Source: Echinicola soli
Lineage (GTDB): Bacteria > Bacteroidota > Bacteroidia > Cytophagales > Cyclobacteriaceae
Reading direction: 5' to 3'
DNA: 64,000 bases
Assembly: GCF_006575665.1 (NCBI RefSeq)
Contig: NZ_CP041253.1
Span: forward strand, 315,501 to 379,500
The position numbers were made by a program, and so were the translations under genes. Below the pieces are notes generated by a model that worked only from the letters and a program-made list of their open reading frames with translations, was not told where the DNA came from and made no database searches. Every line of letters begins with the position of its first letter. Position 1 is the first letter of the stretch. Below, piece after piece: positions 54,493 through 58,053 of the stretch.

Positions 54493-54576
54493 GCCTTGGT
54501 GGCGGAATTGGTAGACGCGTTGGTCTCAAACACCAATGAGGTAACACTCGTGCCGGTTCGACTCCGGCCCAAGGTA
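54493..54576 (+). tRNA. tRNA-Leu (anticodon CAA)
   Basis: A class II tRNA of 84 bases. The acceptor arms GCCTTGG and CCAAGGT pair (with a G-U at the first position), followed by discriminator A. The anticodon stem-loop is TTGGT-CTCAAAC-ACCAA, giving anticodon CAA for UUG codons. There is a long variable arm (GAG/CTC stem), and the T arm is GCCGG-TTCGACT-CCGGC. CCA is not encoded. Its 3' end (from 54561) is also the left attachment site of an integrative element, so the tRNA is rebuilt by the element. Confidence 0.95.
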
Positions 54577-54577
54577 C
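54561..54577 (+). other. attL: 17-bp direct repeat in tRNA-Leu 3' end
   Basis: ACTCCGGCCCAAGGTAC, covering the 3' T-arm strand and acceptor of the tRNA, is repeated exactly at 58006-58022 on the far side of the integrase. This is the classic footprint of site-specific integration into a tRNA 3' end. Confidence 0.9.
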
Positions 54578-54578
54578 A

Positions 54579-54614
54579 AAAAGCCCCTTCAGATGAAAAT
54601 TTGAAGGGGCTTTT
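54579..54614 (+). terminator. Terminator of tRNA-Leu, supplied by the element
   Basis: AAAAGCCCCTTC (54579-54590) and GAAGGGGCTTTT (54603-54614) form a perfect 12-bp stem with a T tail. It lies two bases inside the element's left end, so the incoming element provides a replacement terminator for the tRNA. Confidence 0.85.
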
Positions 54615-54623
54615 CTATTTTTA

Positions 54624-54641
54624 GGCAAACCATTGGCAAAC
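54624..54641 (+). repeat. Candidate integrase arm-type site, left copy
   Basis: GGCAAACCATTGGCAAAC is repeated exactly at 57841-57858. Within it the core GGCAAAC occurs twice, 11 bp apart. The position just inside the left end fits an arm-type integrase binding site. Confidence 0.6.
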
Positions 54642-54761
54642 GGTTTTAATTTTCTATCTAATAAGACTTTGTCCTTTCTCTCTCTGTTTCGGGTATTTCC
54701 CCAACTCTTTCCTCTTTCCGAAAAAGTCAAAAGTTTCTCATCTAATCTTCTGACGATACAG

Positions 54762-54788
54762 AAAAGCCACCTTACTCCGATGGCTTTT
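54762..54788 (-). terminator. Terminator of the toxin-antitoxin-chaperone operon
   Basis: AAAAGCCA (54762-54769) pairs with TGGCTTTT (54781-54788). On the minus strand the stem ends in TTTT and overlaps the last codons of the SecB-like gene. Confidence 0.55.
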
Positions 54789-55239
54789 TTTGCAATTCCT
54801 CCTTACTCAAAACCACATCCTCATAGAGAATCTTCGTCAAATCAATAGTAGGTAGAATAAACTCTTCAAAATTAGTCTTTTTCAACTTCTCGTGTAACAC
54901 ACCTCTTGCCGTTCCCGCAGTAATCGTTGCTAAATGCCTACATAAACCCATAGGAAGTTCTATATCACTATTTTTCTTTTTTGAAGTGTAAAATGAATTG
55001 AAGTCTTCTTCCTTAATTTCAAAATCACAAGCAACCTCTAAAATTATAAAAGGTTTTTCCTTGCAAGAAAACTGAATACTTATCCCAACTAAAACTGTTT
55101 GTTTTATGTCATCAGCCTTTATTGGAACCCCAACCTTCAACCCAACATCACAATTGTCCTCGTAATTTTCCTTCAATACCGCAAACTGTAATGTTTCGAT
55201 ATCAATTAATTTGAATTGAATATTTTTTTTCACTGCCAT
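54772..55239 (-). CDS. SecB-like chaperone (TAC chaperone candidate)
   Basis: A 155-residue protein with no signal peptide. The middle is beta-rich (VLVGISIQFSCKEKPFIILE, then ACDFEI), and the C-terminal half (LATITAGTARGVLHEK, then NFEEFILPTID) parallels the SecB fold, where an ARE-I-L helix is followed by F..L.LP.IN. This is a by-eye family call. It is the third gene of the operon, two bases after the HTH gene. In Mycobacterium TAC systems a SecB-like chaperone binds and protects the antitoxin; the same role is inferred here. An ordinary export SecB is less likely given the context. Confidence 0.65.
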   Translation of the reverse strand: MAVKKNIQFKLIDIETLQFAVLKENYEDNCDVGLKVGVPIKADDIKQTVLVGISIQFSCKEKPFIILEVACDFEIKEEDFNSFYTSKKKNSDIELPMGLCRHLATITAGTARGVLHEKLKKTNFEEFILPTIDLTKILYEDVVLSKEELQKKPSE

Positions 55240-55241
55240 AC

Positions 55242-55691
55242 TTAACTTGCCTCTGAATATTCATTCTGCCCATATTTACCTCTTGGATTAATAAATACAG
55301 CAGTATTAAAAGCCCCAAGCTTCTCATCAATCCTTATTTCATTAACCACTTTATACTCGGCACGTTCCTTTTTCACAACTTCTTCATCTTCTGATAAAAT
55401 TGTCAACAATTGTATCCCTAAAGCTTTTTCCAATTTCACAATAGTACTGTAGGTAAAATTCTCCTCTCCCTTCACAATTTTACTTACTTGTTGAGCAGAT
55501 ACATTCATCTCTCTAGCCAAATCTGCCTTTCTCCAGCCAAGCTCATCTAGCCTCTCCAAAACCCTAAATGCAGTTTCTGAAGACCTCCTCAGCCAATCTC
55601 TATTCTCCCTTCTCCATTCAACTTTTTCTTTCCATCCAGATCTAGGAGACTTATTTGCTAATTCACGGATTTTCTTTTCTAGATTATTCAT
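55242..55691 (-). CDS. HTH (XRE/HigA-like) antitoxin candidate
   Basis: A 149-residue protein with a helix-turn-helix at about residues 50-100 (WRKADLAREMNVSAQQVSKI, then TYSTIVKLEKALGIQLL), an XRE-type fold as in HigA antitoxins. About 50 residues follow the HTH, ending with an extended, hydrophobic-aromatic tail (KLGAFNTAVFINPRGKYGQN). Such a tail is the place where TAC antitoxins carry their chaperone-addiction segment. It starts four bases after the toxin-like gene and probably represses the operon through the palindrome at 56246-56261. Confidence 0.7.
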   Translation of the reverse strand: MNNLEKKIRELANKSPRSGWKEKVEWRRENRDWLRRSSETAFRVLERLDELGWRKADLAREMNVSAQQVSKIVKGEENFTYSTIVKLEKALGIQLLTILSEDEEVVKKERAEYKVVNEIRIDEKLGAFNTAVFINPRGKYGQNEYSEAS

Positions 55692-55695
55692 ATCA

Positions 55696-56241
55696 CTATA
55701 TATCTAAATAGCCAAAATTCAATTCAGGATTATCTTTTTCTAGAAACCCCTTAACCAATTTAAGCTTTTTTAACTCATCATTTGTATGTTTTCTATATTC
55801 CATCCTATCTGTCAGTTTAATTGCTCCTCCTGTTACAATAATCATTGACCGATATCTAATTGCATATATTCTTAAATAGCTCTTTCTCTCCTCACCTTTT
55901 CCTTTTAGACTCTGCTTCTCATAAGATTTCTGGCCTTTTTCTCTATTATCTAATGGCTGGAATAGTTTTTCTAGTGTTGCATTTTCTTCTTGAGAGGCTG
56001 CATCATATAAAACATCAAACAATTCATTTGCATAGTCTTTTGCTTCCCTTACTACACGTTTTAAAATACATTTACCATATTTAATTTGATAGTCTCTTTG
56101 AAATCTCTTAAAAAAATCTCGCAAATATTCATTAGAAGTCCACTGATCATACAATAAACTAAGTGCATCCTCTTCATCACCATCATATTTTATCGAAAGA
56201 AGGTTATTTTTTGGAATATCAAAGGTACGAACTATTTCCAT
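55696..56241 (-). CDS. Putative toxin of the TAC operon (HigB/RelE-like C-terminus)
   Basis: A 181-residue protein, first gene of the operon. Residues 1-115 are helical and not recognisable. The C-terminal part (SYLRIYAIRYRSMIIVTGGAIKLT, shown in two steps: SYLRIYAIRYRSM and IIVTGGAIKLTDRM) has the beta-strand pattern and basic residues of HigB/RelE-type toxins, followed by a helical tail. The larger size and N-terminal extension set it apart from the 90-110-residue RelE proteins. Position before an HTH antitoxin is the HigBA order. RNase activity is inferred, not shown. Confidence 0.6.
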   Translation of the reverse strand: MEIVRTFDIPKNNLLSIKYDGDEEDALSLLYDQWTSNEYLRDFFKRFQRDYQIKYGKCILKRVVREAKDYANELFDVLYDAASQEENATLEKLFQPLDNREKGQKSYEKQSLKGKGEERKSYLRIYAIRYRSMIIVTGGAIKLTDRMEYRKHTNDELKKLKLVKGFLEKDNPELNFGYLDI

Positions 56242-56245
56242 TTAC

Positions 56246-56279
56246 TAAACCTATAAGTTTACTTTTTTGTTCAAAAATA
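56246..56279 (-). promoter_or_regulatory. Promoter and operator of the TAC operon
   Basis: On the minus strand TATTTTTG (56279-56272) matches the -7 consensus TAnnTTTG exactly, 31 bp before the toxin ATG. Between them AAAC-C-TATA-A-GTTT (56247-56260, plus strand) is a near-perfect palindrome that could bind the HTH antitoxin. No convincing -33 TTG is seen. The rest of the gap to 56531 is very AT-rich and holds no gene that I can support. Confidence 0.4.
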
Positions 56280-56531
56280 CAATTACATAAAATTTTCTTA
56301 CTTTAAAAGCAGCAACAATATGAAAACAAAAACTCTGAAATTCAAGAATCATAATAAAAACTCCTTTGATGATTAATTTTAATGTTACCATTATATGGAA
56401 CAATTATTAAATCACTTTTCATAATTCTTTCAATACAAACATCAAAAGCATCACTAAAAATTTAAATTCTTCTTTATATTTCACAGTTATAAAGTTTCCT
56501 ATTACTGGCATCTAAATTAACTTGACGTTTG

Positions 56532-57803
56532 TTATGGACTAACTTGCGCAGCACTAATATACCGCAGAAACATTTTGGCATTTTCATCCATATCCTTGGG
56601 CTTATTAATATAGGATAGAAAAGTACTTTCCTTGGAATGGCCTGTAATCCCCATCAAGACCGTCGTAGGCACTTTCTCGTAGTAATTGGTAGCAAAAGAC
56701 CTGCGGCAAGTATGGGAGGTAATGAGCTCATGTTTCGGGTATTTCCCCGGCTCTTTCCTTTTGGTCTCCTTATTAAACTTCTTTCCTTCCAGGATTTCGT
56801 CAAGTTCTGCTGTTTTTCCTATTTCTTTAATATACTCATTAAATTTCGCCTGGCTAATCCTATGAGGAAATCCTTCCTCTAACACCCTTTCCACTTCCTT
56901 GGTAAGGGGAACAGGAATCACCTTCCCTGTTTTTTGTTGCTTGACATCGAATACCCGGCACTCCCCAGTATCTCGAATCATCTTTTCCGTTAGTTGAAGT
57001 AAATCACCAACCCGTTGTCCTATTTCACAACCTATCAGCAACCATTTCCGAGCGTTGATCAGTGCCTCCCTTTCCAATTTAGTTTTTCTGATTGCTTCTA
57101 GATCATCAAACGTAAGCGTTACTATATTTCTCTCTTCGTTAGACTCTGAAAGGCTCTCTATTAAGTGAATCTTGGGATTGACTTTAATTCCAATTTTTTC
57201 AGCATCTTTTGCGATACTTTTTAGTAGAGATATACACTTTCCTGTGTTATTGATGGAATATTTCTTTGTTTGAAACAGCCAGCTTTTAAAACGTTCGGCA
57301 AAGGCAAGGTCTATTTCCATAAATCGAACAGGTTTTTTGAGCACTTTCTCATACTCCTGAAGGATATTTTTAAACGTTTGATAATTTTTAATCGTGTTCT
57401 CGGACAGCCCCACTTTACTCCGTCCCTTGATCTTCCTACTTGGCGCATTTTGGATAATGTAATCAAGATGACAAATAAACAAATCACTATCATCTGACTC
57501 CTCACGATTGAAGCATCGATCTATTTGCTGATCAAAAAACTCTCTGGAAAACGAAGCTCCTGCTGCTTGGACTTCATTGATCCGATCCATCAAAAAAGCT
57601 TCAAGCACCCTAAGCTGCTTGACCATTTGCTTGTTTGCTTCATCATTTTGCTTGGGATACCCCTTTGCACTACTCCAATTTCTGGGATGTATGAAAAAAC
57701 CCGTTTTGCAGTAATAGGCATCTCCCCTTTTTATAGATATGGTTACATAAACCGGAACTGGTTTATCCAATTTACTTTTAAGTCGATATTTAATACTGGC
57801 CAT
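56532..57803 (-). CDS. Tyrosine recombinase (integrase) of the element
   Basis: A phage-type integrase of about 423 residues from the ATG at 57803. An N-terminal arm-binding domain (Bacteroidetes type, SIKYRLKSKLDKPVPVYV start, then GFFIHPRNWS) is followed by a SAM-like core-binding domain and a catalytic domain. Numbering from the upstream ORF start, the catalytic set is complete: Arg278 (IGQRVGDLL), Lys near 305 (QKTGK), His378-Thr-Cys-Arg381, His403 (MGITGHS) and Tyr412 (FLSYI). It lies next to the right end of the element, as expected. The farther in-frame start at 57845 would overlap the arm-type repeat. Confidence 0.93.
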   Translation of the reverse strand: MASIKYRLKSKLDKPVPVYVTISIKRGDAYYCKTGFFIHPRNWSSAKGYPKQNDEANKQMVKQLRVLEAFLMDRINEVQAAGASFSREFFDQQIDRCFNREESDDSDLFICHLDYIIQNAPSRKIKGRSKVGLSENTIKNYQTFKNILQEYEKVLKKPVRFMEIDLAFAERFKSWLFQTKKYSINNTGKCISLLKSIAKDAEKIGIKVNPKIHLIESLSESNEERNIVTLTFDDLEAIRKTKLEREALINARKWLLIGCEIGQRVGDLLQLTEKMIRDTGECRVFDVKQQKTGKVIPVPLTKEVERVLEEGFPHRISQAKFNEYIKEIGKTAELDEILEGKKFNKETKRKEPGKYPKHELITSHTCRRSFATNYYEKVPTTVLMGITGHSKESTFLSYINKPKDMDENAKMFLRYISAAQVSP

Positions 57804-57840
57804 AAGATAGAATGAGGTGTTTGCCAAAGTTACTATATTT

Positions 57841-57858
57841 GGCAAACCATTGGCAAAC
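57841..57858 (+). repeat. Candidate integrase arm-type site, right copy
   Basis: GGCAAACCATTGGCAAAC, identical to 54624-54641. A further half-site in inverse orientation (GTTTGCCAA) lies at about 57819-57827. All are just upstream of the integrase start, so integrase binding could also regulate its own gene. Confidence 0.6.
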
Positions 57859-58005
57859 CAATTCGCTATTTTATGCTATTTATTTAAATATCATGCTATT
57901 TCAAATCTTGTTCACAAAACAAAAAAACAATCTCAAATTCATTATTACAGGGGTTTTTAAGATCAGAAAGACAGGTTTCAAAAAACGAAAAATCCAACTA
58001 TTACT

Positions 58006-58022
58006 ACTCCGGCCCAAGGTAC
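58006..58022 (+). other. attR: second copy of the 17-bp repeat
   Basis: ACTCCGGCCCAAGGTAC, identical to 54561-54577. It is the original tRNA-Leu 3' end, displaced by the insertion and now without its 5' part. Confidence 0.9.
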
Positions 58023-58024
58023 TA

Positions 58025-58053
58025 AAAAGCTCTCTTTCTGGAGAGCTTTTTTT
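58025..58053. terminator. Bidirectional terminator: original tRNA-Leu terminator and end of TlpA-like gene
   Basis: AAAAGCTCTC (58025-58034) pairs with GAGAGCTTTT (58041-58050), with A and T runs on both sides. It stands at the same distance from attR as the element's own terminator does from attL, so it was probably the pre-insertion tRNA terminator. On the minus strand it ends the gene that stops at 58056. Confidence 0.8.

Follow-up and report, generated by a model that had tools for sequence, protein, structure and literature searches.

A 3.4-kb island at a tRNA-Leu(CAA) gene of Echinicola soli with a predicted toxin-antitoxin-chaperone operon, probably a phage-defence switch

What could a toxin and its controls be doing as the sole recognised cargo of a segment that carries an integrase? 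This question is raised by a 64,000-nt stretch of the Echinicola soli genome (NZ_CP041253.1, positions 315,501 to 379,500; hereafter the window, in whose numbering all positions are given). There, a 3.4-kb segment at the 3′ end of a tRNA-Leu(CAA) gene consists of one tyrosine integrase gene and one three-gene operon for a predicted toxin, a helix-turn-helix (HTH) antitoxin and a SecB-like protein, the parts of a toxin-antitoxin-chaperone (TAC) system. The original prediction, made from the sequence alone, saw a minimal integrative element whose TAC may serve either element stability or phage defence. We consider it likely that the segment is a small genomic island whose TAC operon acts as described below; the operon is probably a phage-defence switch of a known kind.

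An island in tRNA-Leu(CAA)

The sole tRNA gene in the window is tRNA-Leu(CAA) (54493-54577, plus strand; ARAGORN). Its last 17 bp, ACTCCGGCCCAAGGTAC, form the left core, attL (54561-54577), and recur as attR at 58006-58022, both on the plus strand; the 17-mer has exactly two copies in the 5.55-Mb genome, both at the element ends, and none in a reversed control. An exact 18-nt repeat, GGCAAACCATTGGCAAAC, lies inside both ends (54624-54641 and 57841-57858, plus strand) and is a putative integrase arm-type site. The core repeat is more than chance, because the arm-site repeat accompanies it at both ends and because a second Echinicola genome (G047) duplicates its own tRNA variant: the tRNA there ends in a variant sequence, and the variant 17-mer is likewise found twice, 19,565 bp apart, flanking a 71%-identical integrase in the same tRNA. 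In another genus of the family (G050), a 51%-identical integrase is accompanied by a 25-bp repeat from the same tRNA, its copies 18.2 kb apart.

The tyrosine recombinase (56532-57845, minus strand) matches Phage_integrase (E 3.7e-12), Phage_int_SAM_5, Arm-DNA-bind_5 and phrog_1 (E 2e-25). It has 437 aa from the listed TTG start, or 423 aa from an ATG at 57803 that aligns with the start of the G047 integrase, and it is found at E ≤1e-40 in 6 of 196 genomes of a family sample, its own included. The operon genes all lie on the minus strand, with gaps of 4 bases (toxin-HTH) and 2 bases (HTH-SecB), and GC content is 34.8% in the segment and 33.4% in the operon, against 45.4% in the window. The reported layout, a 17-bp direct repeat around an integrase and an AT-rich three-gene operon, is thus confirmed in its open reading frames (ORFs), gaps, repeat copies and composition, and a tyrosine recombinase between direct repeats of a tRNA 3′ end supports an integrative element in tRNA-Leu. 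"Minimal integrative element" holds as anatomy. No excisionase or mobilisation gene, usual but not universal in mobile islands, was recognised among the four genes and five other ORFs scanned.

As in other tRNA-gene islands with tyrosine integrases, the integrase lies inside, the tRNA is restored and a displaced fragment stands at the far end. Unlike them, the island measures 3.4 kb and has one operon as its recognised cargo; it shows how small a carrier of one TAC operon can be. A literature search, covering open-licence papers, found no precedent for a stand-alone four-gene TAC carrier.

All 11 genomes of the genus have tRNA-Leu(CAA) behind the same upstream neighbour, which allows the filled site to be compared with others. 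A hairpin terminator directly after the tRNA in the window (54579-54614, plus strand) is probably supplied by the element, as a different hairpin follows the tRNA at two sites (G198 and G196). That different type stands right of attR in the window (58024-58051, plus strand), where it would be the displaced host terminator of the tRNA, and in G047; because it directly follows the tRNA in G198 and G196, we take these as unfilled sites. Empty sites are therefore present in 2 of the 11 genomes, two others are filled (G000, G047), and the remaining seven are probably scars: G197, G200, G199, G111, G169, G146 and G190 have the element-type hairpin after the tRNA, a single exact core and, up to a distance of 20 kb, no such integrase. 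Reading a single-copy core as an empty site was rejected for seven of nine genomes, in which that hairpin points to probable scars. Core matches at up to 3 mismatches in G197, G200, G196 and G047 look like chance. At the G190 scar site, the roughly 1.1 kb after tRNA-Leu (L074, 5210-6375) includes a stretch that reads as repeated.

A different history, compatible with the TAC reading of the operon, would make the segment a fixed remnant of a larger island that has shed the rest of its cargo and its mobility genes, with an integrase that can no longer cut it out. We rate this slightly below an even chance. A scrap of integrase gene (54685-54716, minus strand; KRKELGKYPK), 91% identical over 32 nt to 56731-56762, lies between the chaperone gene and the tRNA (tblastn E 4e-4 in a search against the segment alone) and is possibly the leftover of an earlier insertion; no similar scrap turned up in the leftmost 1 kb or so of the G047 and G050 elements. 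The 19.6-kb G047 element has an excisionase-like HTH_17 gene and more genes that the window element is without, and the seven genomes with an element-type hairpin but no exact second core or integrase are as scars would appear. However, neither the 17-bp cores nor the 18-bp arm repeats have diverged, and the integrase frame is open. As a separate observation, a 37%-identical integrase in another genome (G133; L078, 2152-8562) is flanked by 18-bp repeats, of which one stands at the 3′ end of tRNA-Ala(GGC), and by these repeats it is a relative with a different tRNA target.

The operon and its relatives

The first protein (55696-56241, minus strand; 181 aa) has a RelE/HigB fold in structure prediction and so falls in a known toxin-antitoxin (TA) superfamily. 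No Pfam or NCBIfam family matches it at E up to 1, its profile finds no RelE-type name among the 10 PDB matches listed, and its PADLOC match, to a PDC-M64B model, reaches an E value of only 0.014. The proposed RelE/HigB link therefore stands by predicted fold and not by sequence profiles, and because no curated family model matches the sequence, we call the toxin HigB-like by fold rather than a HigB family member. The second protein (55242-55691, minus strand; 149 aa) matches HTH_3 (E 1.3e-10), PADLOC PDC-M64B/C (E 1.6e-13 for PDC-M64C) and TIGR02607 (HigA; E 8e-8, although its 32 bits fall below the cut-off of 47.7); a toxin gene ahead of an XRE-type HTH antitoxin gene is the HigB/HigA arrangement. 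The SecB fold claimed for the third protein (54772-55239, minus strand; 155 aa) is supported by its predicted structure, and it matches PADLOC PDC-M64C at E 9.9e-16. Its profile has no SecB match in the PDB, and a single-sequence search of the species-collection contigs gave no match.

Toxin relatives are present in 19 of the 196 family genomes and in 19 of 395 genomes of a class sample, with the E. soli genome counted in each; one locus without a toxin ORF (L133) was dropped before counting. Among 18 toxin-HTH loci of the family, the window included, 14 have an adjacent SecB gene, three have none and one has a remnant. A toxin alignment search of the species collection found 426 stretches that encode a toxin relative, and the best 80 of these were taken as a second sample, which for that reason leans to near relatives. 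Six of its loci lack an HTH gene and five have under 600 bp downstream; with these left out, 18 of 69 have SecB next to the pair, and the others are two-gene loci, many in Bacteroidales and mostly with shorter antitoxins. Judged by length, at least six contigs are shared between the family and class samples and this second sample (L024/L199, L026/L204, L021/L205, L027/L206, L029/L213 and L033/L215). The order toxin-antitoxin-SecB with adjacent genes is thus supported, and the three genes keep together in most family loci but only in a minority of the wider sample. Two further arrangements lack a recognised SecB gene: three tandem toxin-HTH pairs in one genome (G403; L125/L135/L137), with a copy of the box described below before each toxin, and a pair on an IMG/VR contig (L195, 1780-2732) among genes that read as phage-like.

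The 14 SecB genes of the family loci fall into two types, eight of type 1 and six of type 2, which are 12-20% identical among the members compared. Type 2, known from sequence alone, matches Pfam SecB weakly, its E value of 0.01 falling short of the cut-off; it aligns with type 1 at an hhalign probability of 56%, and the type-2 SecB of L020 has no PADLOC match. On the toxin tree, parsimony requires at least eight changes in SecB presence or absence (family and class samples). The window toxin is 50% identical to that of L025 against 42-45% to those of type-2 loci; the toxin tree places it with the type-2 clade (support 0.81), and the HTH tree places its antitoxin with L025 (support 0.56).

Whether a SecB gene is present is mirrored in the antitoxin. 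Across the family and class samples, all 25 antitoxins from loci with SecB have 144-179 aa and all 10 copies without it 102-139 aa (Mann-Whitney p 5e-6), a comparison that leaves out L035 (SecB remnant), L037 (toxin debris, no HTH) and L129/L136 (a fusion) and includes L023 and L036, whose toxins are broken, and the three tandem copies of one genome (L125); SecB absence is less sure in L123 and L128, because both lie near contig ends. The 80-locus sample agrees: 147-180 aa in 17 of 18 with SecB, the 18th (L210) looking frameshifted, and 98-145 aa in 49 of 51 without, the exceptions being L224 (171 aa) and L252 (348 aa). In the window, 58 residues extend beyond the HTH core, and because tail presence tracks SecB presence, we regard them as a C-terminal extension of the chaperone-addiction kind. 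Tails differ by chaperone type and HTH cores are alike; P0091, which could not be split into core and tail, stands outside that comparison. The long L252 protein, encoded from 7500, is antitoxin-like with a long additional C-terminal part and no SecB. In G471 (L129/L136; 1787-2662 of L129), a 291-aa ORF joins HTH and SecB domains beside a toxin split in two frames, which may be decay.

The tail ends are also distinctive. Antitoxins with SecB have an apolar final pair of residues in 23 of 25 cases, those without in 0 of 10 (family and class samples), a contrast that is weaker in the 80-locus sample (15 of 18 versus 20 of 51). According to passages of the CmdTAC paper, TAC antitoxins end in LAA-like ClpXP signals (PMC11618068). 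The window antitoxin ends NEYSEAS, its last residues being EAS, and ends among its relatives include YAMAA (P0086, P0089 and P0093 among them), YAMAG, YAMVA and NYALAA; many listed homologues end otherwise. The host transfer-messenger RNA (tmRNA) tag is GESNYAMAA, and at 30 tmRNA loci of TAC genomes (ARAGORN) 27 tags end in AMAA or ALAA, two loci have no tag and one has an odd peptide. The last is a 21-residue tag in G164 (L190), probably a misprediction.

A near-palindromic box, TAAACTTATAGGTT on the minus strand (56246-56261), lies 6 nt before the toxin start and occurs at one place only in the window at up to 1 mismatch. With up to 2 mismatches allowed, the motif TAAACYTRYAGGTT precedes the toxin start by 5-6 nt in 30 of 33 family and class loci (mean 0.135, maximum 2 loci in 200 mononucleotide shuffles); the three loci without it have a toxin start called as TTG. 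It marks a subgroup, because in the 80-locus sample it precedes 18 of 18 operons with SecB but 9 of 51 without. The box is likely the operator: a loop-less palindrome would be a better match for an HTH dimer on DNA than for an RNA hairpin, and HigA proteins are described as autoregulating through palindromes (PMC11980606). A promoter search gave sigma-70-like matches no better than chance.

Judging by the relatives, antitoxin tail and chaperone appear to be gained, lost and exchanged together. A broader picture, to which we give even weight for and against, is a Bacteroidota-wide family of RelE-fold TA pairs, part of it sharing one operator, in which SecB and the antitoxin tail are a plug-in that has come, gone and been swapped as a unit many times. 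The two SecB types would each be matched to their own tail, the tails would imitate the ssrA tag of their lineage, the chaperone would mask this built-in degron, and the E. soli island would be the module stripped to a self-contained, integrase-borne defence cassette.

Phage defence and its alternatives

We propose the following model. A tyrosine integrase specific for tRNA-Leu(CAA) would have placed the 3.4-kb segment into the 3′ end of the gene, its own copy of the end restoring the tRNA. The toxin, going by its modelled fold, is probably an mRNA-cutting RNase that acts on the ribosome. The antitoxin would bind the toxin and repress the operon through the box; its tail probably destabilises it and exposes it to a ClpXP-type protease, and the SecB-like chaperone would bind that tail and protect it. 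If the chaperone were drawn away, the antitoxin would be degraded and the toxin would stop translation; the most likely cause is a structural protein of a phage, which is the trigger reported for CmdTAC and HigBAC. In published TACs, a capsid or tail protein of the phage brings about their release, as parts of two papers describe (PMC11618068, PMC11980606).

Several known systems resemble the operon. HigBAC of E. coli C496, an anti-phage TAC (PMC11980606, as presented in part of that paper), likewise joins a HigB-like toxin, an HTH antitoxin and a SecB-like chaperone in a proposed phage-sensing logic; unlike its toxin, the one here has 181 aa, is missed by Pfam models, belongs to another phylum and sits on a four-gene tRNA-Leu island. 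CmdTAC, or PD-T4-9, shares the SecB-like chaperone, the antitoxin tail (CmdA ends LAA) and a defence role in the passages of PMC11618068 and PMC9519451, but its toxin is an mRNA ADP-ribosyltransferase of a different fold. With CmdTAC, MqsRAC and HigBAC already described as anti-phage systems (excerpts of PMC11618068, PMC9519451 and PMC11980606), the idea of a defensive TAC is less new than the original prediction implied. Among the candidate systems in PADLOC, the chaperone and HTH protein match PDC-M64C models and the toxin weakly PDC-M64B; the name PDC-M64 was not found in the literature searched.

The evidence for defence comes from the neighbours of the relatives. Using queries taken from outside the TAC loci, we found that 6 of 17 relatives (L020, L022, L026, L028, L032 and L036) have type I restriction genes no more than 5 kb away, versus 0 of 18 control stretches, drawn from 14 carrier genomes at places chosen by number and not randomly (Fisher p 0.008). 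A count of 8 of 17 for restriction or DrmD neighbours was set aside in favour of this one, as its queries came from the loci themselves. In L020, L022 and L036, the operon is preceded by an hsdS-like gene that stops 21 bases short of it, and hsdM is about 1.3 kb off (names in L020 from PADLOC). A DrmD-like gene lies about 25 bases from the operon in L031, and the N-terminus of hsdR directly downstream in L126 and L131.

Judged by this linkage, phage defence is the likelier of the two roles first proposed, and we favour it moderately over element stability or stress control. Toxin-antitoxin pairs on mobile DNA often act as addiction modules, and the operon could serve the element by penalising loss of the island through excision, with phage defence absent or secondary. 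We think this unlikely. It would suit an operon that makes up all the recognised cargo of a segment with an integrase, the presence of relatives on 3 plasmid records, and the situation in L029, where about 5 kb, including an excisionase-like HTH_17 gene, separate the relative from a 27%-identical integrase. By contrast with the restriction genes, however, an integrase-like ORF of this type occurs at only 3 of 100 TA/TAC loci, two of them on the same contig, although the five-integrase profile may miss others. The two sister elements argue for defence and against addiction: in the search of the family genomes, G047 has its one toxin match elsewhere in the genome, not in its tRNA-Leu element, and G050 has none, and both elements carry restriction genes, namely type I methyltransferase and specificity genes with an McrBC gene in G047, and type I specificity and R subunits with a SIR2-like gene in G050.

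A stress or growth-control system carried by chance, like the M. tuberculosis TAC, is quite improbable: gene order and folds are the same as in HigB1-HigA1-Rv1957 (Rv1955-1957), whose chains are not matched in sequence-profile PDB searches with the window proteins, and broken toxins in relatives (an in-frame stop in L023, shortened in L035 and L036) are expected of a dispensable function, but the type I restriction and DrmD-like genes close by speak against it.

The part played by the chaperone can be approached through the relatives of the operon. Passages of two papers report that most TAC chaperones lie in regions that look horizontally transferred (PMC4257090) and describe a deliberate laboratory transfer of chaperone addiction from one TA system to another (PMC5105189). 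Natural relatives with a similar toxin and HTH core exist with type 1 SecB, with type 2 SecB and without a chaperone, so whether the chaperone contributes phage sensing or mere stability is testable by matched pairs; in one such pair, L024 (without SecB) and L026 (SecB type 2), the toxins are 88% identical.

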